64,000 bases of DNA from Kalaharituber pfeilii (Eukaryota; Ascomycota; Pezizomycetes; Pezizales; Pezizaceae): positions 186,001 through 250,000 of the forward strand of contig WHUZ01000058.1 of the NCBI GenBank assembly GCA_015179045.1, given 5' to 3'. This document shows positions 1,530 through 61,604 of the stretch, in pieces. The notes beneath the pieces were generated by a model that saw only the letters and a program-made list of their open reading frames with translations, was not told the DNA's origin and searched no databases. The first letter of the stretch is position 1. Each line of letters starts with the position of its first letter. The position numbers and the translations under genes were made by a program.

Positions 1530-2452
1530 CATACTCGGCATAAGATACAGAAGAATGAGCCAAATTTTATAGGTATGATATATCTCTCTCACTATCAGGA
1601 GATGAAGCATAACGAGTTCAATTTGACAGGTACAACAGCAGCTTTCCATAGCACAATAGTAACAGAGTGAGCTGAATTTAACAGGTATAAGAGTACAATT
1701 TGACTGGTATTGGATGGCACGAGATGCAGCTGAACAAGTCAAATTTGACATGTATGGTAGGTCCATTTCACCTCGCGAGATACAGCAAAATGAGCCGAAT
1801 TTGACAGGCACTTTGACAGGCACGGCAGCTCCTCAATTTAACAGGCACGACAGCTCCTCAATTCGACAGGCACGGCAGCTCCTCAATGGTGTGAGATGCA
1901 GCAGAACGAGTCAAATTGACAGGTATAGTAGGTCCATTTCACCCTGCGAGATGCCGCAAAATGAGCCAAATTTGACAGGCACTTTGACAGGCATGACAGC
2001 TCCTCAATTTGACAAGCACGACAGCTCCTCAATAGTGCGACATGCAGCAGAACGAGTCAAATGTGATAGGTATGGTAGGTCTATTTTACCTCGCAAGATG
2101 CAGCAAAATGAGCCGAATTTTACAGGAACTTTACAGGTACGATAGCTCCTCAATGGTGAGATGCAGCAGAATGAGCCGAATTTAATAGGTATAACAGTCT
2201 TCCTCAATGGCGTAAGATGTGGTCAAGTTGACAGATATGACCTTGATAGGGAAAAATGAGGCAGAATAAGCCCAATTTAACAGGTATGACAGCTTTCTCT
2301 CAATGGCGCGAGATGTGGCCAAATGAGCTCAAGTTGACAAGTATTACAGGACTCTTTCCATAGCGTAAGAGCAGCAGAATGAGCAGAATTTGACAGGTAT
2401 AGTAGGTCTCTCTTGCCCTGCCATGGCGAGCAGCTGCAAGCGGAGTTACGGG

Positions 2453-2500
<48 letters not shown>

Positions 2501-3400
2501 TAGGTCTCTCTTGATAGCACGAGATGCAGCAAAATGAACTCAATTGCACCGGTGTGTAAGTCTCCCTTGACAATACAAGATACAGTAGAATAAACTAACT
2601 TTAACAAGTATATAGGTATGGCAAGACTCTTCTATGGCACGAGATACAAAAGAATGAGCCAAATTTCATAAGTATGGCACATCTCTCTTACCAGCGTGAG
2701 ATGTAGTAAACGAACTCAATTTGATAGGTATAGTAGTACCTTTCCATAGGAGAGTAGCAGAGTGAGCCAAAGTTGACAGGTATAATAGGACTCTTTCCGC
2801 ATTGTGAGATATAGTAGAATGAGCACAATTTGATAGTTATTCAATAGCACAAGATGCAGCAGAACGAGAGTCGAATTTGACAGATATGGCAGGTCTATTT
2901 GAGCCTGGGAGATGCAGCAGAATAAGCCGAATTTGACAGGGATTGGTAGATCTCTCTTGCTAACATGAGATACAGCAAGGCGAGCACAATTTGACAGGCA
3001 TGACAGCTCCTCAATAATCTGAGATGCAGCAGAATGAGCCGAATTCAATAGGAATGGCAGTCTCTCTCGATGGTGTGAGATGAGGTAGAATGAGCTCAAT
3101 TTAATAGGGTATGATAGCTTCCTTTCGATAGTATGAGATGAGCTAGAATGAGCTTAAGTTGACAAGTATTACCGGACTCTTTCCACAGTGTGAGAACAGC
3201 AGAATGAGCCAAATTTGACAGGTACGGCAGGACCCACCTGGCAGCGTGGAACATGGTAAAATGAGCTCAATTCACAGTTAAGGCTGGCCCCTTTCTATGG
3301 TGCAAAGTGAGGCGGTATGGCTCAATTTGACAGATACAATAAGATCTCCTTGATGGTGCGAGATGGGGCAAAATGAGAATGCGCTGGACTGGTACGGCAT
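1530..3400 (+). repeat. Degenerate minisatellite array
   Basis: About 1.9 kb is built from diverged units of roughly 55-60 bp with the recurring elements GAGATGCAGCAGAATGAGC, CAATTTGACAGGTATG and a pyrimidine-rich stretch such as AGGTCTCTCTTGATGG. Unit length and sequence vary. The ORFs on both strands are short and repetitive and are not genes. The same repeat in opposite orientation forms 23330-24310, and single units occur at 27457-27800. A tail B insertion interrupts it at 2416-2498. Confidence 0.85.
2416..2498 (+). mobile_element. Ultrashort tail B retroposed unit
   Basis: The unit begins CCCTGCCATGGCGAGCAG, ends in ACGGGAAATT and a long A run, and is flanked by a 15-bp direct repeat AGTAGGTCTCTCTTG at 2401-2415 and 2499-2513. 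It contains only the 38-nt tail plus poly(A). The flanking duplication shows insertion into a minisatellite unit by target-primed reverse transcription. Confidence 0.85.
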
Positions 3401-3420
3401 GGTGCTAGAGGCCAGATAAG

Positions 3421-3841
3421 GAAGCTAGGTACACACGAAAGGGCATATGCTGGACATCTGAGCAATATCATTGTGGGTAGATATTAACCGGAATATAGGT
3501 AGAGTTTATGGGCTGTAACGAGGGTTTCGCTATCCATAGGTTCTACAATTATTAGCATTATACTCCACAAAATATATAAAATTAATACTAGAGCTCCCTG
3601 GATGCAGGAGTGGGATTACGTGATATTATAAATAACAATGAGAATATACCAATATGAAAAAATGCAGAGAAACGAGATTGTACGGTTATGGAACTGGTAA
3701 AGAGTGTACAGTCACTTGACGCCGACTTTACGGGTCCCTTATCCACTACCGCTACACCTACACTCACCCTCGCGGTCGCGAGGTGGCTACATGCTAGTAT
3801 TCATGTACTTATGATCTTTCCTTCATACTCATGTATTTAAC
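3421..3841. other. No gene seen
   Basis: AT-rich stretch without a convincing ORF, RNA gene or repeat. Confidence 0.5.
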
Positions 3842-3906
3842 CTCGCCATAGCCCATAGGGCGGCACGCGAGTAATGATATATAAAAAAAAAAAAAAAAAA
3901 AAAAAA
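3842..3906 (+). mobile_element. Tail A unit with poly(A)
   Basis: Carries CTCGCCATAGCCCATAGGGC, then GCGAGTAATGATAT and about 20 A residues, matching the 3' end of the resident LINE and the other tail A copies. I cannot identify the target duplication or any LINE coding sequence upstream. Confidence 0.75.
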
Positions 3907-4828
3907 TCCAACAATAAACCATTACTACACGCAGGCTTCAGTTGGGTTTCGTAACACTGCTGCGATTCTTGCCTCCCGGCAGGTCACATAGCTGAGGTCA
4001 CCTCTGCCCGGCGTCATCATCACGGAACTGGATGCTTGGTGTCCGTCGCCGCCGCCTCAGCTCCTGAGACGCTGTTGCAGTAACAGCTAAATCTGATTCT
4101 CCATGTACTCCCACGCCGCCACTTCCACGGTCCGAATTTCTCCATGGCATCACAGATAATTGTAAGTGTCTCGGCTCGTCCACGCAGCTGCAGCATCCTT
4201 GGCGCATCTCCGCATGCTGAGGGTTATATGTAGCACGCGGGGGAAGCCCTCGCGGATACCAGCGCCAACGAGGCTGGTCCGAACAATGCTGCCAGAAAGC
4301 TTCCACATGCATGAAGTAGCAGTGCCCGTAGGTTTTTTTTATCATTACTCGTGTGCCGCCCTGTGCCCGTAGGTTGCAGGGGCCCGAGGCCCTTGCTAGG
4401 CCCGCAGACCGATGCTCAAATTAACAGCAACTCCGGCACCGACAAGTATTCAAATGTCCTTTGGAAAATCTTGCGTGCTTGCTCTTGAGTCTTGACGCTG
4501 GCCCCTTCATTATGGTGGCATGTAGTGTGGCCTGCCTGGGGCGTCTCCAACGCTTCTGCCTTGGCCCACGACAGCGCAATGACCCCTTTCGTGACTACTG
4601 CCCTCGCCACTACGGAACTGGAACTCACGTCCCTGTCAAGCTTCAGCATCCCGTGGTCCTGCAGATGTCATCGCCCTTGACCTACCTCGTCGGTAAACAT
4701 TATGAAAATGCCGTCGACAAAGTCTAGAAGCGGGGGAGAGGATTGGCGGCGCAGAGAATTGCTGAAGAGAGCGCGGTCCTCGATTTGGTACATTTTCCTC
4801 ATTTGGCGCACCTCAAAGTGTGCAACTT
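3907..4828. other. No supported gene; degenerate tail A relic at about 4332-4372
   Basis: Short overlapping ORFs on both strands have no recognisable domains. A T run followed by ATCATTACTCGTGTGCCGCC near 4332-4372 is a decayed minus-strand tail A copy. Confidence 0.45.
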
Positions 4829-4890
4829 GCCCTGCCATGGTGAACAGCCGCAAGCGGGGTCACGTGAAAAAAAAAAAAAAAAAAAAAAAA
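4829..4890 (+). mobile_element. Ultrashort tail B retroposed unit
   Basis: Only the 38-nt tail B (GCCCTGCCATGG … GGGGTCACGTG) and about 24 A residues. It is bracketed by the perfect 13-bp duplication AAGTGTGCAACTT at 4816-4828 and 4891-4903. No other LINE sequence is present. Confidence 0.92.
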
Positions 4891-4903
4891 AAGTGTGCAA
4901 CTT

Positions 4904-6613: not shown

Positions 6614-9600
6614 TTAGCGTGCTCTGTTCAGCAATTTTCTGATGCGTGCCATGCGAGACGAGGTACCTCTAGCCGTACTTAATGGTGTATTCCCGAATGA
6701 ATCCTTCGCTTGAGTGTTGGCACCGCGGCGGAGTAGTACCGAAACCGCTTCTTCCCCCTTACTCAGCACAGCACGGTGTAGTGGCGTCTTGTTCTCATCG
6801 TCCAGAGCTTCCATATTGGCGCCTCGATCGAGCAATAGCTTCATCACTTTGCCATTTCCATTACTTGCAGCAATGTGCAGTGGTGTCCAGTTCTCATCAT
6901 CCAGAGCTTCAATATTGGCACCTCGGTTGAGCAATAACTTGATCACTTCGCAATTTCCTTCACTTGCAGCACGGTGTAGCGGTGTCCAGTTCTCTTGATC
7001 TATAGCTTCGATATTTGCACCTCGGTCAAGCAATAGCACAATGATGTTGCCATGTCCCTTATCTGCAGCAACTTGCAGTGGCGTCCAGTTGTCAATATCT
7101 AAAGCTTCAATATTGGCACCTCGGTCAAGTAATAACTTAATCACTTCACCATCTCCTTCACTTGCAGCGTAGTGTAGTGGCGTCCAGTTCTTATCATCCA
7201 TAGCCTCGATATTTGCACCTCGGTCAAGCAATAACACAATGATGTTGCAATGTCCTTTATCTGCAGCAACTTGCAGTGGCGTCCAGTTGTCAATATCTAA
7301 AGCTTCAATATTGGCACCTCGGTCAAGTAATAACTTAATCACTTCAGCATCTCCTTCACCTGCAGCACGGTGTAGTGATGTCCAGTTCTCTTGATCTATA
7401 GCTTCAATATTTGCACCTCGGTCAAGCAATAGCAAAATGGATTTACCATGTCCATTATCTGCAGCAAAGTGTAGTGGTGTCCAGTTGGTATTATCGAAAG
7501 CTTCAATATTGGCACCTCGATCAAGCAATAGTTTGATTACTTTATCTTGTCCCTCATGCGCAGCACAGTGCAGTGGTGTCCAGTTTTCATTATCCAGAGC
7601 TTCAATATTTGCACCTCGATCGAGTAATATCTTAATTACTTCATCATATCCCTTGTCCGCAGCACAGTGTAGTGGCGTCCAGTTGTCATCATTCAGAGCT
7701 TCAATATTTGCACCTCGATCAAGCAATAACTCAATTACTTCATCATGTCCCTCATCTGCAGCAAAGTGCAGTGGCGTCCACTTCTCATGTTCTGAAGCTT
7801 CGATATTAGCACCTCGGTCAAGCAATAGCTTAATAACTGCATAATCGTCATTAATTGTAGCAAAGTGTAGTGGCGTCTTGTTTTCATGATCCAGAGCTTC
7901 GATATTCGCTTCTCGATCAAGCAATAGCTGAATGATTTTACCATGTCCATTATCCGTAGCATAGTGCAATGGCGTCCAATTTTCGTGATCCAGAGCTTCG
8001 ATATTGGCACCTCGGCTAAGCAATAGTTTCATTGCTTCATCATACCCCTTATCTGTAGCACAATGCAATGGTGTCTGATTGTTATTATCTAGAGCGTCGA
8101 TATTGGCACCTTGATCAAGCAATAGTTCAATAACTTTGTTATAGCCCTTATCTGCAGCAAAGTGCAGTGGCGTCCAGTTTTTATAATTCAGAGCTTCAAT
8201 ATTAGCACTTCGGCTAAGCAATAGCTTCACAACTTCATCATGTCCCTTATTCGCAGCACAGTGTAATGGCGTCCAGTTTTCATAATCCAGAGCTTGGATA
8301 TCAGCTCCATAATCAAGCAATAACTCAATAATTTTCCCATGTCCCCCGTCTGCAGCAAAGTGTAGTGGTGTCTGCTGTTTTTGATTTGAAGCATCAATAT
8401 TAGCACCTCGGCTGAGTAATAGCTTCATCACTTCATCATGTCCCTTATTTGCAGCACAGTGCAGTGGCGTCCAGTTCTGGTTTCCTAAAGCTTCGATGTT
8501 GGCACCTCGATCAAGCAGTAGCTTAGTTACTTGATCATGTCCCGCACCTGCAGCAAAGTGCAGTGGCATCCAGTTCTCATTACCCGGAGCTTCCATATTG
8601 GCACCTTGATCCAGCAGTAGCTTAGCCACTTTGTCATGCCCCTTAAGTGCAGCAACGTGCAGTGGTGCCCAGTTCCTATCACCCAGAGCTTCAATGTTGG
8701 CACCTCGATAAAGTAGTAGCTGAGTTACTTCATGATGTCCCACACCTGCAGCAAAGTGTAGTGGCGTCCAGTTCTCATTACCCAGAGCTTCGATGTTGGC
8801 ACCTTGATCAAGCAGGAGCTTAGTTACTTCGCTATGTCCCTTATTCACAGCACAGTGCAGTGGCGTCCAGTTCTCATTACCCAGAGCCTCGATGTTGGCA
8901 CCTCGATCCAGCAGAAGCTTTGCCACTTTGTCATGCCCGTCAATTGCAGCAAAGTGCAGTGGTGTCCAGTTCCCATTACCCAGAACTTCGATGTTGGCAC
9001 CTCGATCGAGCAATAGCTCAATCACGTTGTCATGTCCCTTATGTACAGCAAAGTGCAGTGGTGTCCAGTTCTCATTACCCAGGGCTTCGATGTTAGCGCC
9101 TCGATCGAGTAATAGCATAATCACTTGTCCATGACCCTCCCTTGCAGCAATGTGCAGCGGCGTCCAATTACCCTTTGTTCCAGCTTCGATGTGGGCGCCC
9201 CGATCGAGCAATAGCTCAACTACCTCCATAGATCCAGTCTCTGAAGCCCTATGCAGGGGTGTCCAGCAACCTTCGTCCACAGCGTTGATGTCAGCACCTC
9301 GAATGAGCAAAAGCCTAACTACCTCGTAGTTCCCGTACTGTACAGCATTGCGAAATTGCGTTCGTTCATTGTTATCTTGAGTTGCCACGGGAGAACCCGG
9401 ACCAAGTAAATGTTGAGCCATATCAGCTGGCACTTGCTTACTTGAACTTGCGACGTGCAGGGGCGTCCAGCCATCCTGGTCCCTGGCATTAATATCAGCT
9501 CCACGATCAAGCAACAGCGCAACCACGGTTTGATTTCCAGACTGTACAGCCGCATGTAGTGCTGTCCGTTTCGATGTCCTGTCCTTTGCTTTGACGAGGG

Positions 9601-12067
9601 CCTCATCTCCAAGGAGATACTCCATCACATCGATTGCCCCAAGCTGAGCAGCCACTGCGAATAAAGGCGCCTTTTCATCAGGAAGCTCGTATTGCAGTGA
9701 CAAACCCTCATTCATCCAAAGGGAAAGAAGTTCTCGCCAGTTAACATTATGCTGGATGATTTGGACAGGATATAGCCACTTATAAAGCCCGTCCTCAGGA
9801 GGAGAACATCCGTGTTCCTTCAGGAAAAGCCGTACTATGTCCTCATATCCCTGACATAACATCCATCCAAATAAAGAGGGCTCACGCATCGCTTCATAAA
9901 AGCCTCTCTGAGAAGAAACCGGCAGTTCGTAGGGACTTGCTTTCTCTGTAAAACTTCCGTGATTCTTAGCGACTGCCCGTACCTTTCCGAGAAAAAGATT
10001 GTCGCGATCCGAACTAGTCTGTTTAGGCAGCTGAGAGTCTTCATTGCCCAACAAGAAGGTTACGGCCTCATAACACGACATCTTCATTGCAAGTAGCAAT
10101 AGAAGAGCTTCATGATTGCTTTTGTTTGAGGAAAAACCTCCCTGGAAGCCGTAGAGAAGCGATGCATGTTTCAGGTATAGGACTAGCATAAGGCAAAGAA
10201 CCATTGCTCCTGTGAGGTATGTTAATTTGAGTTTTAGTTCAATCGCCAATTGATCAACTAACCTCCACGTTCAGGCAATATGATTTTCTGGCCAGAGATA
10301 CTAACAACATTGGGCTCCTCTATCGTCGCCATGTACGCAGCACTGGTTTCGACTATCAACATGTCAGTGAAAAGAAATAAATGCATACAGACATTCGAGT
10401 AAGTATAGCAAATAGTCCGCATGAAATATTCTGATGGTACCTGTAAGCTGAAACTCCGCCAGACATCTCCACCCGGAATCATGGATAACGACACGAGGCT
10501 GGTCCATTCGTGGCTTTCTCAGAAGAAGCAGTACTAACGAGGGAATTTTACTAGCGTGTGCATCCGCTTGGTATAGTGCGAATCTGTCGAATAAAAGGAT
10601 TAGCTGCACCGTATGACACGATAAATGTGCTTCCTTGTTTGTTTTATTTTATATTTTTATTTCTTCAAAATATCATTCGCATCTGTTCCCGTAGCATGTG
10701 GCTAGAGACGCTGTGAGGGTTGCCGCGCCTACCTCCGGAACATAATCTCCTCATCGGCCATTACCCACTCCACTCCTGGCTCGTTTCCCTTGGAACCTGG
10801 CTTCGGTGCAGGCCGTGCCACTTGCCCCTCCCAGATCTGTAAATCGTCATCGCTGATATGGTCGACTTTAGGAATTTTAGCATTAAGCTTCTGCATATGC
10901 CGGAACTCCTCGTTGACTGCCTGTCATTGTTCGTTAATATTTCATCAGGGCATCTTAAGCACAGGGAAGGAATTGAGATTACCTCAGTCAAGTTTTGAAC
11001 ATCGTATCTGACCGTTTGGTCAATGTATCCGAATTGGGGATGCGAAGTAATAATGTCAATTAGAATCCAGGATGCCTTAAGCAGGTTCACAAAAGGTTCC
11101 TTCGGAGTATCTCCCTGTGCCGGAAGAGATTCGAGTTCGGCTCCCGCCTTGATAGCCCGCAATCAGTAGACGTTAATGGAACAAGGATAGCAATAGAGCC
11201 AGACTCGGATCACGCACTCTTAACAACCACCATCTTCCAGCTTTGATCCACTCCTCGACGCCGATTGCTGTCCATGGCTGTGTTACCTGGGCAAGCTTCA
11301 TACATCGTTCGCTAAATGTGTTGCGAAAAAAGGTATCTGGTGCAGCTGGAGCTGTTAAGCTGGGAGCCAAACTTCCTGTGGGGACGCGCCGGAGATATCC
11401 TTTAAGCTCCCGTAGCCCATTGTCTATCTCATGTGTAGCCTTCTCGATGCGTTGAAGGGATGAACTACAGACAGGCGGTCAGTTAACTCTAGATAGGCGT
11501 TATCCTGCACATTTGATAATGTGACAAGCAAAATTGGTAGCCAAAGCGTAACGGGTCTTGAACAATTGCATACTTCCCAGCACAGGTGAGAATTAAATTA
11601 AAGACTCCATTATGATAAGCGATCTACACACAGGTATTGGTTAATGAATGCAAGAGCAGGAGACAGAAGGTTCGGTAACTGACCTTATGTCGAATACTAT
11701 CAACCTCTTTAGCATCGATTGACCATTTGAATTTGTCCCACTTTCCCTTGATGCCAGACCTCGATGAGTTTCCAAGGTTGCGGTGCTTTTCGAAGATATC
11801 TTGTAGCTGGTTTAATATGCCTCGCACTCTATTCAACATCTCCAGCAGCATACACTGCCTCTCTTCTCCTGATTGCAGGAAAATTGATGTAGGATCCTTA
11901 AGTTCCTCAGCGAAACTCTGCATTACCGCCCACATATGGCGTAAATCATCGACTAGCGTCCTAAAATCTTGTGGCGCACCCCTTGCAACTCGATAGCACT
12001 GATCGTAAAGCTTCCAAGCTAGCTGACCCACCGCCAGAAAATCGCCTACCCCAAATCCGAAAGACAT
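6614..12067 (-). CDS. HeLo-like N-terminal, ankyrin-repeat protein (8 exons, about 1620 aa)
   Basis: Exons on the minus strand, read high to low: 12067-11684, 11623-11574, 11464-11218, 11147-10983, 10920-10733, 10583-10441, 10352-10263 and 10209-6614. All junctions have GT/AG ends and stay in phase, giving 1620 codons. The first 128 residues (MSFGFGVGDFLAVGQLAWKL…) resemble the HeLo-like N-terminal domain of fungal STAND/NLR proteins, which signal in self/non-self recognition and cell death. A hydrophobic stretch near residue 430 (AMVLCLMLVLYL) may be a membrane segment. About 30 ankyrin repeats follow, most with the core NWTPLHxAAxxGHxxVIxLL. No NACHT or NB-ARC nucleotide-binding motif is visible, so this is not a canonical NLR. 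The 99-bp repeat units are very similar to each other, and a 198-bp two-repeat block is locally duplicated (7020-7410), implying recent unit turnover. The exon 1-5 structure is independently supported by the homologous copy at 18967-20622. The domain name is from family resemblance only. Confidence 0.78.
7020..7410 (-). repeat. Recent duplication of a two-ankyrin (198-bp) block
   Basis: The repeats that read ALDIDNWTPLQVAADKGH and AIDQENWT occur twice in succession with almost no change. This pattern is expected when ankyrin units expand by unequal exchange. Confidence 0.7.
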
Positions 12068-12659: not shown

Positions 12660-12715
12660 GTGCCCTGCCATGGCGAACAGCTGCAAGCGGGGTTACGTGA
12701 CGAAAAAAAAAAAAA
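12660..12715 (+). mobile_element. Ultrashort tail B retroposed unit
   Basis: 56 bp: tail B plus about 13 A residues, flanked by GCATCTCGAT at 12650-12659 and 12716-12725. It lies 31 bp upstream of another retroposed element (12747-13273), so two insertions hit the same small interval. Confidence 0.88.
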
Positions 12716-13829: not shown

Positions 13830-13853
13830 TAGCCTGTATGCGGGGTTACGTGA

Positions 13854-13886
<33 letters not shown>
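13830..13886 (+). mobile_element. Ultrashort tail B2 retroposed unit
   Basis: TAGCCTGTATGCGGGGTTAC, GTGAAT and about 32 A residues, flanked by the perfect 15-bp repeat AAGTAATCAAGGGAG at 13815-13829 and 13887-13901. B2 is a sister variant of tail B seen at the 3' end of the LINE fragment at 45727-46313. Confidence 0.9.
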
Positions 13887-14733: not shown

Positions 14734-14791
14734 TTTTTTTTTTTTTTTTTTTTAATCATTAATCGCGTGCCGCCCTAAGGGCTATGGTGAT
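14734..14791 (-). mobile_element. Ultrashort tail A retroposed unit
   Basis: 58 bp consisting of a T run and the complement of tail A only, flanked by the perfect 12-bp repeat TTGCAGTGTTAA at 14722-14733 and 14792-14803. Confidence 0.9.
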
Positions 14792-15466: not shown

Positions 15467-15532
15467 ATCGCTATAACCCTTAGGGCGGCATACGATCAAT
15501 GATATAGAAAAAAAAAAGAAGAAGAAGAAGAA
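15467..15532 (+). mobile_element. Tail A unit
   Basis: ATCGCTATAACCCTTAGGGC, ACGATCAATGATATAG and a mixed A/GAA run. Flanks carry AAGCAATCCATT (15455-15466) and AAGCAATCAATT (15533-15544), a target duplication with one difference. Confidence 0.75.
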
Positions 15533-15544
15533 AAGCAATCAATT

Positions 15545-16742: not shown

Positions 16743-16779
<37 letters not shown>

Positions 16780-16990
16780 CATTACTCGCGTGCCGCCTGA
16801 TAGGCTATGGCGAGATGGAGGTGATAGAGCTATAGATGCTATAGATGTTGCTTTTTTGCATTTTTTTCGTTCAGATTCAGAATCAGGGCTATTAACTTGG
16901 TCTAGAATTAATTCATCACATATATCAGAGATATATTCTGTGCGTAATTGAGTGCTACAACTGCAAACTTGATGCTGGAAAAAGTGCCAG
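16650..16990. repeat. Dispersed duplication, copy 1 (partner 18590-18850)
   Basis: Shares an ordered series of blocks with 18590-18850: GGTATTTCACA…, TATAGATG…, TTTGCATTTTT…, AATTAATTCAT… . This copy holds a tail A insertion that the partner lacks. Confidence 0.7.
16746..16817 (-). mobile_element. Ultrashort tail A retroposed unit
   Basis: A long T run followed by the complement of tail A only. Target duplication GAGGTGATAGA at 16735-16745 and 16818-16828. The inner hairpin reads GCCTATCAGGC, a compensated variant of GCCCATAGGGC. The partner repeat at about 18640 has the empty site. Confidence 0.9.
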
Positions 16991-23329: not shown

Positions 23330-24310
23330 TTATTATCTTGCCATAACCTATAAGATTTAGCTTATTCTGCTGCATCTCGTACCATAGAGAGAAATGAGTC
23401 ATACCTGTCAAATTGAGCTTATTCTTGTGCTGTCGAGAGAGACTTATCATACCTGTTAATTAAGATCATCCTGCCTCATCTTACGACGTGCAAATGGTAC
23501 TGCTCTCCTTATAGATTGAGTCCATATGTAGCCATTGACGGAAATCTGTCATACCTATCAGATTCAGCTCATTCTGCCTCATCTTATACTGTTGAGAGGG
23601 GCCTACAATACCTGTTAAATTTAAATGTCTCATCTCTCACTATCAAAAGGGCCTGTCATACTTTGTTAATAGAGCTTATACTACTGTATCTCCCGCCATC
23701 GTGAAGGGTCTACCATACCTGTGAAATTTAACTCAAATTACCATATTCTGCATTGTTGAAGGCTGCCATCCTGTCAGATTAAGCTGTTGTTGCCATATCT
23801 CACATAGTTGAGGAGGACCTAGCATACCTATTAAGTTGAGCTGTTGTTGTCATATCTCGCGTGGTTGAGTGGACCTAGCATACCTATTAAGTTGAGCTAG
23901 TTAGCCGCAGTAAAAGGAGTGGGTTGCTTGTGCTTTGATTCCTGCCTACACGAGATGCAATTCGGGCATGATTTTGTTGTTGCCATATCTCGTATGGTTG
24001 AGTGGGACCAGCATACTTCTTAAGTTGAGCTCATGTTAGTATATTTCGCGTGAGTGGGACCTAGCATACCTATTGAGTTGAGCTTATGTTGCCATATCTT
24101 ACACCATCAAGGTGCCCTGCCATGGCGAACAGCTACAAGCGGGGTCATGTGATATAAAAAAAAAAAAAAAAAAAAAACACCATCAAGGTATGCGATCCTG
24201 TCAGATTAAGCCATATTTCATACCGTTAGGTAGAACGCGTTATACTTATTAGATTCAGCTCATTCTATCATATTTTACGCTGTTTAAGACAGCCCACCAT
24301 ACCTACAAAA
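23330..24310 (-). repeat. Degenerate minisatellite array, inverted relative to 1530-3400
   Basis: Repeating blocks such as ATTCTGCTGCATCTCG, ATACCTGTCAAATTGAGCT and GTTGAGTGGACCTAGCATAC are the reverse complement of the 1530-3400 units. Later units become a simpler 45-50-bp form around GTTGAGCTGTTGTTGCCAT. No gene. Confidence 0.82.
24114..24176 (+). mobile_element. Ultrashort tail B retroposed unit
   Basis: GCCCTGCCATGGCGAACAGC … GGGGTCATGTGATAT plus A run, flanked by the 13-bp repeat ACACCATCAAGGT at 24101-24113 and 24177-24189. It lies within the minisatellite array. Confidence 0.92.
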
Positions 24311-25255: not shown

Positions 25256-25319
25256 TTTTTTTTTTTTTTTTTTTTTTTGGTCACATGACCCCGCATGCGG
25301 CTCTTCGGCATGGCAGGAC
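25256..25319 (-). mobile_element. Ultrashort tail B retroposed unit
   Basis: T run, GGTCACATGACCCCGCATGC and GGCATGGCAGGAC. Target repeat GAGTAGGTACGCCT (25242-25255) and GAGTAGATACGCCT (25320-25333), one mismatch. Confidence 0.85.
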
Positions 25320-25505
25320 GAGTAGATACGCCTGAACGCAACCTTTGTTTTGGTCATGGATGCCCACTACTCAATTGAAATAAACTTTAACTGTTGCAAA
25401 GGGAGCTTTAGAACCTGGGCTACTCGCAGAGTCACTTACTCGGCTGCTTATTGGACTGCTTATCGGGCTGCTCATTGGGTCGGCCACTACAGCCGCTGGT
25501 TGTTA

Positions 25506-26113
25506 GAGTGCTTCACCTAGAAACCGATCATCACCGGGAAACCGATCAAGTCCATTAACTTACATACAGAGCTGCTGTGAATGCAAATGACACTCAAGTG
25601 GCCTCAAATTAAAGCCAGAGCATGGGAGAACATAGTAAATTATTTTCTGCACTTTCTTTTCCCACCTTGTGGCACCTGAGGGGTGCTATATACTGGAATA
25701 TATGCAACCCTATTCTAACGTATACTTTTGAGTCACTATATGTGAATGAGATTACCTGAGGCCTTTGCATCTCAATATATCCTCTATGACTTATGCTAAG
25801 TAAGTATACCAAGTTTTGTGATCATTGGACTTATCAGTACAGAGTTACTGCCATGTCAAAAAATACATTTTCGCGTACTTAGATTGGTAGCGGTATTGAG
25901 CTATTTCTTGATGAGAAAGATGCACAGAGACTCTGTAAAGCTATATAATTGTAATACATGCATAGGGAAATGTTTTCTGAATAGATTGCAGCATTGACAA
26001 ATAGTCGGGGTAGTTGAGCACTACAAGATATACATATATGTAAAATCCTAACTTCCTCACATAGTACGTAGTAGTGTATGCCAATATGGGTTACTAGAGG
26101 TTCGGAAACATAG
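25506..26113 (+). repeat. Left inverted arm of the TA element
   Basis: Pairs with 26643-27250. ORFs at 25609-25812 and 25879-26127 here have mirror copies in the other arm, so they are not independent genes. Confidence 0.85.
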
Positions 26114-26642
26114 TCTGCTAGCTTCATGTACTATCACCGGCACTGCTACCACTCGATGGGGTACTAAAGGGCTGACTCAGAATGAGCACTACATATCGAA
26201 TATATATGCATTTGTATATACCATGCATGCGCTATGTGACAGCAGTAAAATGTGTTGCTATCATGAAGGTGATATGAACTGCTAAGAAGAACTAGTTAGA
26301 ATTGCTAGTCAAGTTTCTTTTTCACTTGGTAGAGGTTAATTCTCTGTGCGTACTATCATTATTACTTATACTGTTGAAGTATTCATATCTATACTAATAA
26401 GGGTCTATGCCATACGGAATTATAATACATTAAGGACAATATGAGACTTGACTACTAAACTTATTTCCACTGCCATGTATCTCATAGGTATTAGTTCTAT
26501 AAGTATAATATGTATATTATTCACTGCTTATAATACACATTCGATACTTACTCACTGGTGCGGTTATAGGAGTCTTATAGGATCTAACGGAGTCATGTAT
26601 ATCCTATATAAGCTTACAAGCAATAGCATGACAGTGCTAAGG

Positions 26643-27250
26643 CATGTTTCTAAACCTCTAGCGACTCATATTGGGCATACACTGCTACGTACTATGTGAG
26701 GAAGTTAGGATTTTACATATATGTATATCTTGTAGTGCTCAACTACCCCGACTATTTGTCAATGCTGCAATCTATTCAGAAAACATTTCCCTATGCATGT
26801 ATTACAATTATATAGCTTTACAGAGTCTCTGTGCATCTTTCTCATCAAAAAATAGCTCAATACCGCTACCAATCTAAGTACGCGAAAATGTATTTTTTGA
26901 CATGGCAGTAACTCTGTACTGATAAGTCCAATGATCACAAAACTTGGTATACTTACTTAGCATAAGCCATAGAGGATATATTGAGATGCAAAGGCCTCAG
27001 GTAATCTCATTCACATATAGTGACTCAAAAGTATACGTTAGAATAGGGTTGCATATATTCCAGTATATAGCACCCCTCAGGTGCCACAAGGTGGGAAAAG
27101 AAAGTGCAGAAAATAATTTACTATGTTCTCCCATGCTCTGGCTTTAATTTGAGGCCACTTGAGTGTCATTTGCATTCACAGCAGCTCTGTATGTAAGTTA
27201 ATGGACTTGATCGGTTTCCCGGTGATGATCGGTTTCTAGGTGAAGCACTC
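26643..27250 (-). repeat. Right inverted arm of the TA element
   Basis: Reverse complement of 25506-26113, with visible differences near the inner end (CCCAATATGAGTCGCTAGAG against CCAATATGGGTTACTAGAG). Confidence 0.85.
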
Positions 27251-27533
27251 TACTCACATGGGTCGGCTGGCAACCCAATATAGGATGATAGGCTGTTGCT
27301 CAGTACACTTCCAGGTTGCCGGTTGATACTGCAGGAATTACCCCTCATTCTGACGTCAAGTTCAGTGTTGACTAGGTTGGTGATACAACGTGCCGACGCG
27401 CTCAGAACATGTTTGTTTATGTTTGTTGACGCGACTGTTGCAGCACATATTTACAGGTATGGCAGGCCCCTCTTAACAGCATGACATTTGGCAGAAAAAG
27501 CTATTGACAGGTAGGGCAGCTCTCCTCAATGCT

Positions 27534-27821: not shown

Positions 27822-27877
27822 TTTTTTTTTTTTTTTTAATTTTATTACTCGCATACCGCCTATCAGGCTACGGCGAG
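27822..27877 (-). mobile_element. Ultrashort tail A retroposed unit
   Basis: 56 bp of T run and tail A complement. Duplication ATGAAGCAGGA at 27811-27821 and 27878-27888. The inner hairpin is GCCTGATAGGC with a compensated stem. Confidence 0.92.
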
Positions 27878-28612: not shown

Positions 28613-28715
28613 TAAGCCTGCCTCCAGGCTTTGAGGGTTTAGACCCAGGGGCCCTGCCTTGGCGAACAGCTGCATGGGGGGTCACGTGAAATAAAAAAAA
28701 AAAAAAAAAAAAAAA
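28613..28715 (+). mobile_element. Tail B element, longer form (103 bp)
   Basis: Starts TAAGCCTGCCTCCAGGCTTT, passes through CCCTGCCTTGGCGAAC to GTCACGTGAAAT and poly(A). Target repeat GAGCCTAGCCCCT at 28600-28612 and 28716-28728. Confidence 0.92.
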
Positions 28716-32298: not shown

Positions 32299-32355
32299 TT
32301 TTTTTTTTTTTTTATTTCACGTGACCCCGCATGCAGCTGTTCGCCATGGCAGGGA
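32299..32355 (-). mobile_element. Ultrashort tail B retroposed unit
   Basis: 57 bp: T run, TTCACGTGACCCCGCATGCA and GCCATGGCAGGGA. Perfect 14-bp duplication CAGTGGACGCTATT at 32285-32298 and 32356-32369. Confidence 0.93.
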
Positions 32356-34537: not shown

Positions 34538-34933
34538 TTACCCCCCGTCTCTACGGCTGACGTCCTCGTCAGTGGTATGCCACAGGCCGGTATCACGCAT
34601 GGTTGTCCACCGTTAAACCTCTCCATAGGGAAAAAACCACGTGGGAAAAATATCCTATGGGCGAGGAAGGTATGGACTCAATTGCTGTCCCACACTGGTG
34701 CAGCCAATTTTATGAGCTTGCATGCTCTCTGACCCTTATCCTGGTCTTTGTGGTTGCATGGCTTCCACGCCATTTCCACAATCTTCGCTTTTGAAACAGT
34801 GCTCAAAGCCCACTATCGCTCTCGGTTTCTGTCGTCTACCTCCAATGCTAATCCAACCCTCTCACCGACGCTGCTTTTGCAAAACACCTCCATCGTGACA
34901 ATATCCTCCCTCCCAGACGATGATTTCTCTTCA

Positions 34934-35983: not shown

Positions 35984-36078
35984 TGTGCGAGTGTTCGAGG
36001 ATTCGGGGATTGGGTGGAAACGAGTCTTGAGGATAAGCGAAAAAGTATGTAGATGTATAGAGTAGCTAAGCGTTGTAA

Positions 36079-36538
36079 TGTTACGGTTTCTACGATAATG
36101 TAGTAAATATGAGGGTGTAACTTAGGACAACGCTTGGTGCTTGACCTTCGACAGGGCAGCTCTAGCTGGCCCTTCTTATAGTCAATCCGGCGTGCCTTCC
36201 TTCTATTGTCTCTCTATGCTATGATATCACGATGCTCTATCTATAGGCATCCCTCAGCCACTGCCTCGCCTCGTCTAGAGGTCCATCCGGTGGCTCTGCT
36301 CCTGGAGGTCCGTTCAGTGGCTCTGCTCCTGGAGGTCCATTCGGTGGCTTTGCTCCTAGAGGTCCGTCCGGTGGCTGTCGCTACGCTCTGACCATGCCGG
36401 CATTCCTTGTGATACACATCCGTGCCCGACCCATGTTTCATTGCCAGACTGCAGCTATCGGTTGATCAGGCCGAATTGTCGCTAGTAGCTTTACAGGCCA
36501 ATGTGGGTGGATATCCCCTTCGCGGGTAGACCCTGACA
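36079..36538 (-). repeat. LTR (5' LTR in element orientation)
   Basis: Identical to 34078-34537. On the minus strand an ACTATAAGAAGG TATA-like box lies about 45 nt before AAGCGTTGT (36127-36135 on the plus strand as ACAACGCTT). Confidence 0.93.
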
Positions 36539-38129: not shown

Positions 38130-38208
38130 AGTTTTTTTTTTTTTTTTTTTTATTTATTTATTTTTTTATATCATTACTCGCATGCCCTGTGCGCTATGGC
38201 GGGGTTTA
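38130..38208 (-). mobile_element. Ultrashort tail A retroposed unit
   Basis: Long T-rich run and a tail A complement with a partly deleted hairpin (CGCATGCCCTGTGCGCTATG). Duplication TATAGATTGA at 38120-38129 and 38209-38218. Confidence 0.85.
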
Positions 38209-41820: not shown

Positions 41821-42651
41821 TGTTACACCTACCTTTCTAGTTATAGTTCTGCAGTCACGTCATGCAATACTTATCATGTTATATAATCCTGTTTGTTCTG
41901 TATCTTTAATCAATTAGACTTATTGGACCCAAATGATACAGACCTTCTTCATTCCTTCTAGGAAGCTCTTGTTCTACGTGACGAAACCCTCCTTATCCTA
42001 CGTGCGAAGGCGGAATTCCAGGGTTGACTTTAGAACAGTAAGTTGGGTGAAAAACAAAGAAATTAAAGCCTGTTACTCTATGAAGCGTGTAGAATAACAA
42101 GTATTACATAACCAACAGGTCAACTCTATGCTAGCAACTATCCCTGTCATGTTGTACGCAACTTTTGGCGCTTCTGAAGACTTACCCTTGCCCTCCAGTA
42201 TACTTTTGTCTAGGTACTGTTCTCGGGGTAGAGGAAAATACCCAGAAGCACTATGCATGCATCAACGTACGCCACTGGAGAGTGGGTCGAAAGTGAAGAA
42301 GGTATGACTTTTGCCGAAAAGTCTTCAGAACTTCTGTATGGGATTTACACACAAAAATATGACACACGTATTTTTCAGCTGCATACAAGTTCATCAGGTG
42401 TTGCATACTTCCATTTCACTACCATAACAGCGAAGTTGATCCAGCACACTTCTAACTCATGACAGGAGCTATTCATTTATCATTTGACCCCACACTTTTG
42501 AATCTCTTCCACCTCATTTGTGCATTCATCACGTAAAGTAATAATTCAGATGTGCTCAACTCAAGTAGTTTCTCAATTGTGAATTCTATGACCAAAACCT
42601 TGCATGCCGAGCTCGGATTTTCATTTCGCTATTATACAAGGCCTTAGCGGG
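41821..42651. repeat. Intergenic sequence with a small direct duplication (42055-42160 with 42815-42920)
   Basis: Both pieces share AACAAGTA, TTACATAAC and CTAGCAACTATC blocks. No gene is supported here. Confidence 0.5.
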
Positions 42652-42731
42652 GTTTTTTTTTTTCTTTTTTTTTCACATGACCCCGCATGCGGCCCCTTGG
42701 TCTAAACCCTCAAAGCCCGGAGGCAGGCTTG
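42652..42731 (-). mobile_element. Tail B element, longer form
   Basis: T run, CACATGACCCCGCATGCGGC, AAACCCTCAAAGCCCGGAGG and CAGGCTT. Target repeat GGCCTTAGCGGG at 42640-42651 and 42732-42743. Its 5' end (AAGCCTGCC) coincides with that of 28613-28715. Confidence 0.9.
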
Positions 42732-48770: not shown

Positions 48771-48774
48771 TCTT

Positions 48775-51041
48775 TGAATTGGACTTCAAGTTTAGGAATT
48801 TGTTCCATGGGAATCTGGGAAGGGAGTGCGGACTGGAGCTGGAGGTCTTTGTTAGGAGACTACAGGCGCACCCGGCGATTGAGGCCATTTCGAATCAGTC
48901 GGGTTCAAGAGTTGACCAGAAAAAGATGCACGGTTCGAATGGCTGAGTTGAACATGGTCATGATCCTCAAGAAAGGGAAGCCCCGAGATCAACCCGGGAG
49001 CTGGCGTCCCATCACGCTTCTAAACACAGTCGCCAAGCTGGGACAGAAGGTCATGGCCAAAGCTATACAGAGGAAGGACGAACTGTTCAGGGAATCACAA
49101 CTGGGCAGCCGACCCTTCCGGGGAAGCGAGGATCTCCAGAGACAGGTTCTGAAAGAGGTCGACATACGGCTCAAAAAGAGGGAATGGACGGCACTGGTAG
49201 GAGACGACATTAAAGCAGCATTCAACCACCTGAGACGGGACAAAGTAGTCTCAAGGCTGGAACGCCTGGACCCAAACATAGCCAGCTTCGTTCAAGGGTT
49301 CCTCCAACCCACACAATTCTCCATATCCTGGGACGGGAAGGCACGCGGGACGGGAACGATGACGGACGGGGCCCCGCAGGGGTCACCTCTCTCCCCGGTC
49401 CTGTTTCTGGTGGCGGTCGCACCAGTTGCGGAGAAAGCCGAAAAAAGCCAGTTCACGCGCTCCTACGTCGATGACTTCCACAGTGTGATCTCCAGCAGCT
49501 CGATGAGACAACTACGAAAAGACATAGACACTCACCGCAGGACACTGGCCCAAGAAGCATCCAAGGAAGGCTTCGAGCTGGACCCTCGGAAAGCAGAGAC
49601 GCTGATCATAGGTACCCAAGGACCGAGTTATCGATTGGTTGGGCTGTCGGTCGATTGGGAACTGAAATACGAGGAACACTTCCGGAAAAGGCTGAACCTA
49701 GGGAAGGCGGCCTGGGGCATCGCACGGAGACTACATAAAATCCCCCGAGCAAGAGACGACAGTTATACACCAGCATAGCGAGAAACATCGCAACATACGG
49801 CTGCTGGGCCTGGCAGGACTTCGCCAAGGGAGCACCAGTCCAGAAGAAACTCAGACAACTGGAAAAATGGCAATACTGTATCGCCAGAGACATCATAGGC
49901 GCCCCCTGGGGTACCAGAAGGGACACGGTAGAGGGAATAGTCAACCTAGAATCGATCCAAACCTTCGCAAAGGGGGAAAGAGATCGCGTCGAGGCCCGAT
50001 CCCTGAGGTTCCCCGACGAACCTCTCCTAGACCCTTCCGCAGACACCATATACCTAAGAGGCGATCTCTCCCACCGGACCCCCATCCCCCTACATATCTT
50101 CCCCACACTCCCTAGCGACACGAGCCGGGAGAGATGGGAGGAAGTCATTCAAGCCGAAGAAGAGGAAGGTTGGAAAGGGGTCTACACGGACGGAAGCCGC
50201 ATAGACAACCTCACCGGGGCGGGAACACACTCTCGCGGACAGGAAGAGTACATATACCTCGGCAGATGCAACACCGTCAACGACGGAGAAATGATCGCAA
50301 TTGGCAAGGCCCTCAACACCGAAGGGGAACTCATGATCCTAACCGACTCGCGCACAGCAATTTCCAGACTACAAAAGATAGCCAACGGCGACCCAAACGC
50401 CGAAGGCTCATCCATGGCAGTTCGACAGGCATGGGAAGAGAGGACCAGACGCGGCGACCTAGACACAGCTGTCATGTGGGTCAAGAGCCACATAGGGATA
50501 GTCGGGAACTCCAAGGCGGACAAGGCAGCCAGGACGAGCACAGCCATCCAGTACGAAGACGAAATGGTCACGGAGGCGGGTATAAGACAAGAAGCCAAAA
50601 GACTCAGAGCAGAAGAACGCAATCGTCTGGGACTATCATACAGACCCCTCCAGACAATCGACAACCGAAAAAGATTATCCACCCTGGCAGGGATCCTCGG
50701 GAACAAGGGCCTCAAGGAGTGGAGACACCGCATAGGCCAAGCCGATTCACCGGAGTGTCGATGGTGCGGGAGAGCCCTGGAAAACCTGACGCACATATCC
50801 AACGATTGCGCCCCTTGGCTCAGGAGGATGAGAGGAGGGGCTGAAAGCCTCACACATCCGGACAAAGACATCAACATGGCGGAGATATTGGACTGGGCGG
50901 GGAAAGAGTAAACTTAGAGCGGGCGGGGATATCTCAGTTTTTCATATTATTCTTTTCATTCTCATTTCACATTATGTATCTAAAACATCGCCATAGCCTT
51001 CGAGGCGGCATGCGATTAATGAAATAAAAAAAAAAAAAAAA
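48775..51041 (+). mobile_element. LINE retrotransposon: RT, RNase H, tail A, poly(A)
   Basis: The most complete LINE copy. Order: reverse transcriptase, connector, RNase H, zinc knuckle, short 3' UTR, CATCGCCATAGCCTTCGAGG … GCGATTAATGAAAT and about 16 A. The 5' part is truncated within the RT fingers, and I find no ORF1 or endonuclease. No obvious target duplication was found. It shows which LINE lineage owns tail A. Confidence 0.9.
48953..50911 (+). pseudogene. LINE ORF2 (RT-RNase H), one frameshift
   Basis: RT motifs: GSWRPITLLNTVAKL, DIKAAFNHL, GAPQGSPLSPVLF and the catalytic YVDD (about 49465). The frame shifts once near 49755, after which a single open frame continues from 49757 to 50911. 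That frame has a connector (IARNIATYGCWAWQDF), then RNase H with YTDGSRIDN, DGEMIAIGKAL, LTDSRTAI and VKSHIGIVGNSKADKAA. The C-terminus is GILGNKGLKEW, SPECRWCG with H-x4-C, and MAEILDWAGKE. RNase H removes the RNA template strand during target-primed reverse transcription. The upstream part (48774-48950) is out of frame. The enzyme is inactive as read. Confidence 0.88.
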
Positions 51042-53692: not shown

Positions 53693-54510
53693 TTTTTTTT
53701 TTTTTTATATATCATTACTCGCATGCCGCCTTTTTTATTTTTTATTTTTTTTTAATATGATTAATCGCAGACCGCCCTATGGGCTATGGCGATATGTTAG
53801 GTACAAAATCAATCATCATACGCGTGCCGCCTGATAGGCTATGGCGAGGTTTATCTAACTACATTTATGATGATGAAGAGGGGAGAAAATAACGAAATGA
53901 AGTAGAAATAGATAGGTTATAAGGAAAATTAGGAAATTGATCCCGTCCTCACGCAAGTCTCCTCCGAGTCAATGTCTCCACGTCTGCTGCATCCGCTATT
54001 CATCCGTCCTCACCCAGCAATTCCATCAGGACGTGTAGCGGGTCCGGGTCGTCGTCTCCTGTTCTTGGAGGTCTCCGTATGTCCTCCATTCCTCCTCGCC
54101 ATCTCCTTCGCCATACCTGGCAATCGTTGAGGAGGTGTTTCGTGGTTTCGTCGTGTTCGCCGCACCACCGGCGGTTCGGGCTGTCTGCCTTCCCTATTTT
54201 GTGCCTCCAGGCTCGTAGGCCTTTCGCACCTAGTAGTCCCGCGAGTTTCGCTACCTGTTTTCTGAGCCTCTGTAGTGGGCGGTAAGTCATCTCGAGTCTG
54301 TTTCTTTCCCCTGCCCTTGTTTGTCTGGTGATCTGTCTCATCCCGGCTTCGGTGACTACCTCGGGTAGGTATTGCAGGAAGGTGCCTGTTTTCGCCGCTT
54401 CGTCTGCCTCTTCGTTTCCCTGGATGCCCTTGTGTCCCTTGATCCACATTACCGCGACGTCCCGGTCGCCTTTCGCGATTCGTCTTTCCCATGCCAATCT
54501 GGCCTTTTGT
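53693..54510 (-). mobile_element. 5'-truncated LINE with nested tail A insertion
   Basis: 818-bp insertion flanked by the 15-bp repeat GCATCCATTCTGCTC at 53678-53692 and 54511-54525. Minus-strand coding runs about 54551-54000: VAVMWIKGHKGIQGNEEADE, TEAGMRQITR, GLLGAKGLRAWRHKIGK, and a zinc knuckle with the first Cys altered (SPNRRWCGE). A second tail A with its own T run interrupts the element's tail at about 53731-53812. Confidence 0.9.
53731..53812 (-). mobile_element. Nested tail A unit inside another tail A
   Basis: T-rich run, AATATGATTAATCGCAGACC, GCCCTATGGGCTATGGCGAT and a short remnant, placed between two halves of the host tail (CATTACTCGCATGCCGCC before and CATACGCGTGCCGCC after), which look like the target duplication. 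Confidence 0.7.
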
Positions 54511-57820: not shown

Positions 57821-57831
57821 GAAGACATACT

Positions 57832-57863
57832 AGGCCGGTAGCCTGTATGCGGGGTTACGTGGC
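57832..57863 (+). mobile_element. 32-bp tail B2 insertion without poly(A)
   Basis: AGGCCGGTAGCCTGTATGCG then GGGTTACGTGGC, flanked by GAAGACATACT at 57821-57831 and 57864-57874. The smallest insertion seen, with no A tract. Confidence 0.82.
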
Positions 57864-58141
57864 GAAGACATACTGTACTAGCTTTCTCAAGTGATACAAC
57901 CAGCCTGGTGTTGAGAATAAAATTTTCTTGGAAGGGGAAGTTAACCAGCAAAGTTCGGTTATCAATCAACCTTTGCCTGATACACCAGCCACAAGCAATT
58001 CGTCGCTACAGCAACCATGATTAATAATTGCCTGAATTGCTTTACCGAGATGTTTGTACCAGGTCATGGCAGAGTCGACATAGTAGCTGACCCTCTAGGT
58101 ACTTTACAAGTCAAAAAGAAACATTTTTTCCACAATTAACA

Positions 58142-60310: not shown

Positions 60311-60469
60311 CGGCTTAGGTACGTGATACGTACTTGACTAAAGTCGTAGACCGCTGCTGTTTAAAATTCTCGATATATGGACGATTCTTCTCATTTGAAT
60401 ACTCAAACAATCTGGTAAACGCTGGCCTCGATTCACCTGGATAGCTGTGGAGGGATTCGTTTAGTTGGC

Positions 60470-60540
60470 TTAAAGCTGCCTGAATGGCCTGGACCGGCCT
60501 GAATAATCTGGACTGGCCTGGTTGGCCTGGCCTGTTGGAT
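60470..60540. repeat. GGCCTGG-type short repeat
   Basis: Irregular repeats of GGCCTGGACTGGCCTG; no gene. Confidence 0.7.
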
Positions 60541-60707
60541 TCATTGTATGAGATAGTTATAATGAGGAAAGGAAAAAGGAAGTGAATAAACGGAAAAAGG
60601 AAAAGAAGGCAAAATGAAGATCCCCATTCTGGTCATGATTGTGTGAACGTCCGACTCTCGGCTAGGCAGCACAGAGTAACTAAGTTGCGTTTTGGATTTT
60701 TCATTGA

Positions 60708-60711
60708 AACG

Positions 60712-60742
<31 letters not shown>

Positions 60743-61180
60743 TATTATTACTCGCATGCCGCTGTGCGCTATGGTGAGGTTAGGTACATAGGGAATAAAT
60801 TGCGGGAAACGGTAAACTTTGAACTGATCCTCGTCATACCTCGCCGTAGGAAATACGTAACAGAACAATGTAAATACTCGTCATGTCCTCGTAAAAGGAA
60901 ATATGTAACAGAAATTGTAGCTACATGTCATGCCCTCACCATAGGAAATGGGTAATCTAAATAGTTAATAAGTATGGGAAGAGTGAATTGTCTGCGTCGT
61001 CATGTCTTTGCCGATGCCAGCATGTCCACCAGTGGGTCCCTGCCTTCTTTCTCCTTGGGCGGTACTCTCGCCTCCGCCTGACCTCCGGGTCACTTCCGTC
61101 TCCATACCCTGCATCTCTCCCACAACGTGTATTGCCGTCCCTTCTTCTACTCCGCACCATAGGCACTCCAGACTCTCCGC
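60708..61180 (-). mobile_element. 5'-truncated LINE with T-A tail and tail A
   Basis: Flanked by the 16-bp repeat TTGGATTTTTCATTGA at 60692-60707 and 61181-61196. In element orientation the 3' end is tail A followed by T16 and A15 (60712-60742 on the plus strand). Coding remnants of the zinc knuckle (SLECLWCG) lie at the other end. The 3' UTR contains three 47-bp repeats (60830-60962). Confidence 0.9.
60830..60962. repeat. 47-bp tandem repeat in a LINE 3' UTR
   Basis: CTCGTCAT…AGGAAATACGTAACAGAA recurs at 60830, 60877 and 60924 with divergence. Confidence 0.75.
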
Positions 61181-61257
61181 TTGGATTTTTCATTGAGAAA
61201 AATGAGGTACAAAGAGCTAAGGACAAAGAACCGAGGCCTCTGAATAAGGGCACCGGA

Positions 61258-61326
61258 TTTTTTTTCTTTTTTTTTTTTTTTTTAATATCACATGACCCCG
61301 TATGCAGCTATTCGCCATGGCAGGGC
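61258..61326 (-). mobile_element. Ultrashort tail B retroposed unit
   Basis: T run, ATCACATGACCCCGTATGCA and GCCATGGCAGGGC. Duplication AGGGCACCGGA at 61247-61257 and 61327-61337. Confidence 0.9.
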
Positions 61327-61539
61327 AGGGCACCGGACTTGAGTTGCGTAGAAAGTTCCTGTTTATGATAATGAGATGTTTGGCCAGCGAGGTTAGGCCG
61401 ATTAGATTAATATTAAGAAGGTTGGTAGTGTAGTGGTAGTCTGAATACGGTGTTACAGCGAATCTCACTTCATCCTCATTTCCATTAGAGTTGAAGCCAC
61501 CACAGTGATGACAGAAGTTGCCTTCTTGCCCTTGTGCTC

Positions 61540-61593
61540 ATCTCGCCATAGCCCATAGGGCGGCACGCGAGTAATGATATAAAAAAAAAAATT
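61540..61593 (+). mobile_element. Ultrashort tail A retroposed unit
   Basis: 54 bp: ATCTCGCCATAGCCCATAGG … GCGAGTAATGATAT and A10, flanked by CCCTTGTGCTC at 61529-61539 and 61594-61604. Confidence 0.9.
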
Positions 61594-61604
61594 CCCTTGT
61601 GCTC

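Follow-up and report, generated by a model that had tools for sequence, protein, structure and literature searches.

How can an insertion consist of little more than the last 40 nt of a long interspersed element (LINE) and a poly(A) run, and begin at nearly the same base each time? A 64,000-nucleotide stretch of the genome of the desert truffle Kalaharituber pfeilii raises this question (the window; C315:186001-250000 of a genome of 78 Mb in 360 contigs). It holds twelve such insertions, which a preliminary description had read from the letters as small retroposed units with clustered 5′ ends. All twelve are real: direct repeats flank tail plus poly(A) in 12/12, with target duplication scores of at least 19, above the cut-off of 17 at which we call a 5′ end mapped. 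The clustering holds as well, since 12/12 begin 0–5 nt from the 5′ base of a hairpin predicted in the LINE 3′ tail, the base to which all end positions below refer (positive upstream). These hairpin-only units, sorted by tail subtype, are:

14734..14791, reverse strand: tail A2 plus poly(A), 12-bp duplication, end +0
16746..16817, reverse strand: tail A1 plus poly(A), 11-bp duplication, end +3
27822..27877, reverse strand: tail A1 plus poly(A), 11-bp duplication, end +0
38130..38208, reverse strand: tail A1 plus poly(A), 10-bp duplication, end +5
61540..61593, forward strand: tail A1 plus poly(A), 11-bp duplication, end +2
2416..2498, forward strand: tail B (sorted as B-TT) plus poly(A), 15-bp duplication, end +0
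4829..4890, forward strand: tail B-TC plus poly(A), 14-bp duplication, end +1
12660..12715, forward strand: tail B-TT plus poly(A), 10-bp duplication, end +3
24114..24176, forward strand: tail B-TC plus poly(A), 13-bp duplication, end +1
25256..25319, reverse strand: tail B-TC plus poly(A), 14-bp duplication with one mismatch, end +1
32299..32355, reverse strand: tail B-TC plus poly(A), 14-bp duplication, end +1
61258..61326, reverse strand: tail B-TC plus poly(A), 11-bp duplication, end +1
15467..15534 (end approximate), forward strand: probably another unit of the hairpin-only kind, tail A2, duplication of 12 bp that has one mismatch and scores 15, under the cut-off of 17, end +0

As the last line indicates, every entry of the earlier list stood but the list was not complete: the probable unit at 15467 and two longer units, at 28613 and about 42731, add to it.

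Each unit ends in one of two related tails with a predicted stem-loop. Tail A comprises CTCGC...GCGAG (A1) or ATCGC...GCGAT (A2), then TAATGATAT, then poly(A); tail B comprises CCCTGC...GCGGGG, then TCACGTGA (B-TC) or TTACGTGA (B-TT), and a further variant, B2, occurs. Across nine representatives the two tails have the core GCCATRG...G.A.GC in common. The earlier division into two families was too coarse, as A splits into A1 and A2 and B into B-TC, B-TT and B2. Among 88 distinct full-length A tails, the closing pair is C-G in 43 and A-T in 29, and an inner pair is C-G in 69 and T-A in 9. In tail A 90% of cells pair, and double changes fill 40 cells; in 500 shuffles, which ignore the relatedness of copies, the maxima were 86% and 24. 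These figures support, short of proof, a conserved 3′ stem-loop with compensatory changes in tail A. For tail B the hairpin is a prediction from folding energy (-14.3 kcal/mol for B-TC as RNA).

Sampled 5′ ends pile up at the base of the hairpin. A whole-genome pattern search with the 3′ half of the tail plus poly(A) returned 492 exact sites for A1 and 962 for B, and reversed-pattern controls for both searches returned 0 sites. Selecting solely by this pattern, we sampled sites 1, 3, ... 79 of each list (40 A1 and 40 B copies); the lists run in contig order, so that the A1 sample covers C1–C42 and the B sample C1–C13. For each copy 300 nt upstream were scanned for the 5′ end. Shifted-pairing controls, in which a 3′ flank is compared with another copy, reached a score of 17 in 0/120 cases for A and 0/120 for B, and in two later control sets in 1/80 each, at 19.0 and 20.0. 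Among the A1 copies 10/40 start within -2 to +2, which sets 10 ends in the peak against 7 elsewhere (17 mapped), the latter at -10, 23, 50, 101, 138, 212 and 229 (229 is doubtful and seems part of a repeat). Among the B copies 12/40 start within -1 to +6, 12 ends against 6 (18 mapped), with the others at -17, 38, 116, 154, 222 and 293. The background of other ends predicts 0.11 ends in the 5-nt A1 window and 0.15 in the 8-nt B window (Poisson P = 6e-17 and 3e-19). The remaining 23 A1 and 22 B copies, many with LINE sequence upstream, presumably extend beyond 300 nt or no longer have duplications. We rejected a detection floor at the hairpin as the source of the peak: the pattern can detect ends as far as about -16 for A and -18 for B, a range in which just two copies lie (L105 at -10, L109 at -17). 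The preliminary description had named a smooth 5′ end distribution as the result that would speak against it; in the samples, on which this comparison was made, the ends are not smooth. Very small retroposed units are a real and strongly non-random class.

The junctions allow these starts to be read base by base. In 37 B-TC units the base at -1 is G, as in the LINE, in 35/37, while G at -2, where the LINE also has G, falls to 9/37, the background level. Where the end is at or below 0 and the duplication reaches the CCC, its last base is G in 6/6, so that G is likely the first base of the B-TC unit itself. Bases added ahead of it (TT, TC, CATCT, ACT, AT) are predominantly T and for the most part differ from the LINE, and two B-TC ends at 6–7 nt carry non-LINE bases. 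A2 units start at the first paired base, within duplication ambiguity, and keep the LINE's C at -1 in just 2/11; A1 units start at the first paired base or keep AC. A cap-derived extra G was considered and rejected: A units generally start without an added G, and the G of B-TC is the LINE's own.

B-TC units have a second fixed start, at another predicted hairpin. We took 20 B-TC copies that keep the adjoining LINE sequence CCAGGGG (the LINE context), the first 20 one-mismatch sites from C33 on; five earlier sites fell outside this set, three previously collected (two long, one starting at 38 nt) and two exact. Of these copies 11/20, two of them scoring below 17, start 38–42 nt upstream at AAGCC, where pairing begins in H1, the adjacent predicted hairpin on the 5′ side. 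Seven of the rest are longer, L188 shows no duplication, and L179, situated within a repeat, is doubtful. Two units of this kind lie in the window:

28613..28715 (3′ end approximate), forward strand: longer unit running from H1 (AAGCC...GGCTT) through tail B-TC, 13-bp duplication, end +39 (counted from the tail hairpin)
42650..42731 (both ends approximate), reverse strand: unit starting at H1 with an internal deletion, 12-bp duplication adjoining CAAGCC, H1 module 97% identical over 38 nt to L189, the sole long B-TC copy read

Among the 50 mapped B-TC ends from all collected loci, a set that includes targeted fetches and was cleared of duplicates, of matches with E above 1e-4 and of copies too close to the edge of a locus, the tail hairpin accounts for 37 and H1 for 11, and the other 2 lie at 127 and 149. 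The interval of 8–37 nt holds none of the 50, and hence no B-TC end lies in front of the small hairpin H2. The order of tail hairpin, then H1, then none at the weak H2 fits 5′ trimming held up by stable or protein-bound structure. The fixed 5′ ends proposed earlier are borne out at the tail hairpin; this second class of ends, and the dependence on subtype described below, had been missed.

In one subtype, B-TC, most copies are the predicted stem-loop alone. Genome-wide, 1446 B-TC tails occur at up to 2 mismatches and 394 when CCAGGGG is added, at up to 3 mismatches, which leaves about 1050 tails outside a LINE context, most of them counted by sequence and not by duplication. Only 3/49 exact consensus tails carry the exact LINE context. 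Among 20 further exact tails, the first 20 not seen before, none has LINE context (0/20); duplications score at least 17 in 15, are weaker at the same place in 3 and were not found in 2. The units also follow the variants of the LINE: exact copies number 120 for TTGG and 90 for CACGC, of which 26 and 11, respectively, have exact CCAGGGG, both context counts being made by hand from one-mismatch rows. In all collected loci, 74 hairpin-only units have a duplication score of at least 17, and from sample shares and pattern counts we estimate several hundred in the genome. Their genomic spread is uneven, judging from a 200-kb block (C223:400001-600000; loci L009–L028) that is poorer in tails than the 64-kb window: 5 against 30 matches to the A1 query and 9 against 21 to the B query.

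Further configurations of the tails were seen in passing. Even shorter units with flanking repeats start inside the hairpin at 4341-4365 (-12), 13834-13885 (-12) and 57843-57874 (-7), the last without a poly(A) run. At 53711-53848 three consecutive tail A hairpins, one cut short, are separated by A-rich spacers and could be nested insertions or template jumps. Genome-wide, the CACGC variant of tail B occurs in 59 forward and 31 reverse copies.

The units appear to share their copying machinery with LINEs of the same genome. Longer copies with tails A and B are LINE 3′ ends, and the units are collinear with the LINE 3′ end. One degenerate LINE in the window ends in tail A2:

48774..49778, forward strand: reverse transcriptase (RT) open reading frame (ORF) of the LINE (RVT_1, E 1.2e-22)
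49739..50908, forward strand: RNase H-like C-terminal frame of this LINE; CCHC motif read by eye (open frame; homologues)
50987..51025, forward strand: tail A2 at the 3′ end of this LINE (sequence)

The C-terminal frame has 11 homologues, all from K. pfeilii, of which 1/11 is named ribonuclease H-like and 2/11 carry PF00075. This element thus has the fungal LINE layout of RT followed by an RNase H-like region and CCHC, which we take to be that of the Tad1-like clade. Hairpin-only units, H1 units and longer truncated copies are alike in duplication length (median 13), poly(A) length (medians 21–24) and nick preference (pyrimidine followed by purine-rich sequence), which argues for one machinery behind all three size classes. 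The earlier suggestion that LINE machinery copies the units agrees with these three measures, and we regard such copying of the hairpin-only units as likely. L189 has no RT match in 3.5 kb, and B-TC may therefore depend on other LINEs. By eye, L189 may join an ORF1-like stretch to the CCHC end of ORF2, perhaps as an internally deleted, non-autonomous LINE.

We lean towards an origin of the units from trimmed RNA: somewhat probably, they are LINE target-primed reverse transcription copies of a discrete short RNA cut back from its 5′ side to the base of a hairpin. Trimming of the template is what we infer from the DNA ends. LINE protein would hold the tail hairpin; a 5′-to-3′ exonuclease of the Xrn1/Rat1 type, or an endonuclease acting at the boundary of single and double strand, would strip the LINE RNA to H1 or to the tail hairpin; and the enzyme would then run off the end of the remnant, often adding a few bases, before the product is inserted. 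How much of each RNA decays before use would be a candidate cause of uneven yield among subtypes. Trimmed RNA is favoured because two separate predicted hairpins each have ends at their 5′ base, and these ends often carry non-LINE bases. A wider proposal, which we hold more tentatively, is that RNA decay or processing strips LINE transcripts to the RT recognition hairpin plus poly(A), that such remnants are efficient templates, that the naked 40-nt signal outnumbers LINE-attached copies in one subtype for this reason, and that the insertions form a fossil map of the stops of trimming. In human cells, an L1 reporter mRNA appears to be an XRN1 target, in the portion of that source available (PMC11014359), and MOV10 is reported, again in a source available in part, to recruit DCP2 for decapping of L1 RNA (PMC12140422).

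Several results weigh against an origin from trimmed RNA. Hairpin-only units make up 12/16 B-TC copies in the B sample, 0/14 B-TT copies and 1/10 B2 copies (the one at score 16.5), and the difference between B-TC and B-TT, which have nearly the same hairpin, is marked (Fisher P = 2e-5). B-TT units do exist: across all collected loci 8/28 B-TT copies are hairpin-only, and the window holds two of these. Among the 14 sampled B-TT copies, L088 has neither LINE context nor a duplication that we could find. A2 gave 6/35 overall, pooled from two subsets biased in opposite directions: 0/20 among the first 20 of 60 exact sites not previously collected, and 6/15 among exact copies collected for their likeness to a hairpin-only query (L005 at score 16.5, the others at least 22). 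Genome-wide, 32/60 exact A2 tails are preceded by AC, as is usual in LINE copies. Because near-identical hairpins differ so much in yield, the hairpin alone is not sufficient for unit formation. Compensatory pair changes were looked for in tail B and none was found, and the folding energies of B hairpins do not stand out from those of shuffles (z -0.5 to -1.1). Folded together with its LINE context by RNAfold, the B-TC stem reaches -2, yet the ends sit at -1, and about one third of A1 units retain AC, 2 nt past the stem. In human cells, XRN1 loss lowers L1 retrotransposition, as far as the available part of that source goes (PMC11014359).

The closest rival places the end in the enzyme instead of the template. 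The LINE RT might release intact LINE RNA right after copying the hairpin, for example if its tail-binding region anchors the hairpin, with no small RNA involved; we judge this unlikely, though well worth keeping in view. Release would yield identical DNA ends, and a fungal LINE of Magnaporthe is described, in the accessible part of the source, as switching template at hot spots with predicted hairpins upstream (PMC2104539). However, an RT, which travels 3′ to 5′ along its template, would be expected to halt on meeting a structure and not just after it has copied one, and this disfavours an RT stop. A stop in front of structure was rejected on the 0/50 mapped B-TC ends at 8–37 nt, and the ends at 6–7 nt carry bases foreign to the LINE. 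Upstream of tail A2 nothing should stop the enzyme, as the 31 nt folded there are AU-rich and unpaired, and anchoring of the tail hairpin would not obviously explain ends at H1. The GCC*A/U motif of the Magnaporthe stops is present in the truffle hairpins, but 0/17 and 0/18 mapped ends lie at -6/-7, and a stop of that type was rejected too; one unsampled B2-like copy in the window (57843) does sit at -7. Between the discrete small RNA and the strong RT stop that the preliminary description offered, the former, as a trimmed RNA, is thus better supported, by the two hairpin bases, the added bases and the empty interval, and the latter less so.

The remaining accounts fare worse. It is improbable that the end is set on the DNA side before joining, either by nascent cDNA folding back at the hairpin or by a nuclease that cuts the cDNA back from its 3′ end as far as the hairpin. 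The ends do lie at helix bases, and the RNase H-like C-terminal part of the LINE could free the cDNA; but the B-TC hairpin, at -14.3 kcal/mol as RNA, has just -3.7 as cDNA, where 186/200 shuffles fold at least equally well, and this disfavours a DNA-level cause. That weak cDNA hairpin belongs to the most productive tail, whereas A1 (-7.1) yields fewer units; with B-TT (-2.6) also giving few, cDNA stability fails to order the subtypes either way. The G-U pairs of the B stem vanish in cDNA, and added bases suit run-off on an RNA end better than trimming of cDNA. Slightly more improbable still is an independent minimal short interspersed element (SINE), with some hairpin-only loci transcribed as the source of most copies. 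The scarcity of exact LINE context among consensus B-TC tails (3/49) would suit it, as would the missing RT match in L189 and the dependence on other LINEs that this may imply. Against it, copies of each of the consensus, TTGG and CACGC variants are found both inside and outside a LINE context, in keeping with units having arisen from LINE RNA repeatedly, and we know of no RNA polymerase III promoter for which a 38–40-nt body has room. A SINE derived from tRNA, 5S or 7SL was rejected: the unit starts at the hairpin base, and the only tRNA that Rfam (at gathering cut-offs) and ARAGORN detected in the window lies outside the units. Ordinary 5′ truncation, with the short copies as the end of an even series, is scarcely credible. 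Broad truncation exists, since the mapped ends outside the peaks spread over -17 to 293 nt, but the peaks, at 10/17 (A1) and 12/18 (B) mapped ends, exceed that background about 80- to 90-fold, and the even series is refuted for these samples.

Other repeats stand in the window apart from the units. At 34078-36378 a gag-like ORF with a weak Pfam hit (34934-35983) sits between two identical direct repeats, each of at least 300 bp and spaced 2001 bp apart, perhaps a young long terminal repeat element. At 25504-27252 lies an inverted repeat with 579-bp arms, 99% complementary and 591 bp apart, and 6614-10249 encodes a 1211-aa ankyrin-repeat protein with a 99-nt (33-aa) period and 25 overlapping 300-nt copies in register.

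The units are best placed as a variant of LINE-mobilised short elements whose mechanism we infer. They are SINE-like in being short, in their duplications and poly(A), in lacking an ORF in the 40-nt body and in having a tail common to LINEs of the same genome, and they have no tRNA, 5S or 7SL head with an RNA polymerase III promoter. SINEs are typically longer, and the units would fall well below the usual SINE size. With 5′-truncated LINE insertions they share the 3′ end, poly(A), duplications and nick preference, and differ in ending at discrete predicted hairpin bases where truncations scatter. The comparisons that follow go as far as the available parts of the sources. Mg-SINE of Magnaporthe is likewise non-autonomous, with a LINE-like 3′ end, and likely mobilised in trans (PMC2104539); unlike SINEs, with their head derived from a small RNA, the truffle units are headless. 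The MGL template-switch chimeras of Magnaporthe, MINE, also have non-random RT end points tied to predicted hairpins and GCC*A/U, but end before GCC and join a second RNA, whereas truffle units keep GCC and end at the stem base (PMC2104539). Ylli of Yarrowia lipolytica, also a fungal LINE, is represented by 104 fragments that range from 30 bp to 1 kb and carry poly(A); target duplications, which the truffle units have, were not identified there, nor is an analysis of 5′ ends given in the available part (PMC5014426). In the stringent-type tails of zebrafish ZfL2-1 and ZfL2-2, a 3′ stem-loop is specifically bound by the LINE protein and was studied as part of the LINE (PMC4176376), whereas the truffle stem-loop is predicted, known from sequence, and by itself makes up most copies of one subtype. 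We found no description of hairpin-only LINE units in the literature searched, of which subscription journals were mostly outside coverage.

If the trimmed-RNA origin is true, the minimal RNA for LINE-driven retroposition in a living lineage would be a hairpin of about 40 nt plus poly(A), and the units would mark a recognition element in nature. 5′ truncation would then be tied to the state of the template RNA and not to enzyme processivity alone. K. pfeilii offers a system in which such ends can be counted at single-base resolution across many copies.

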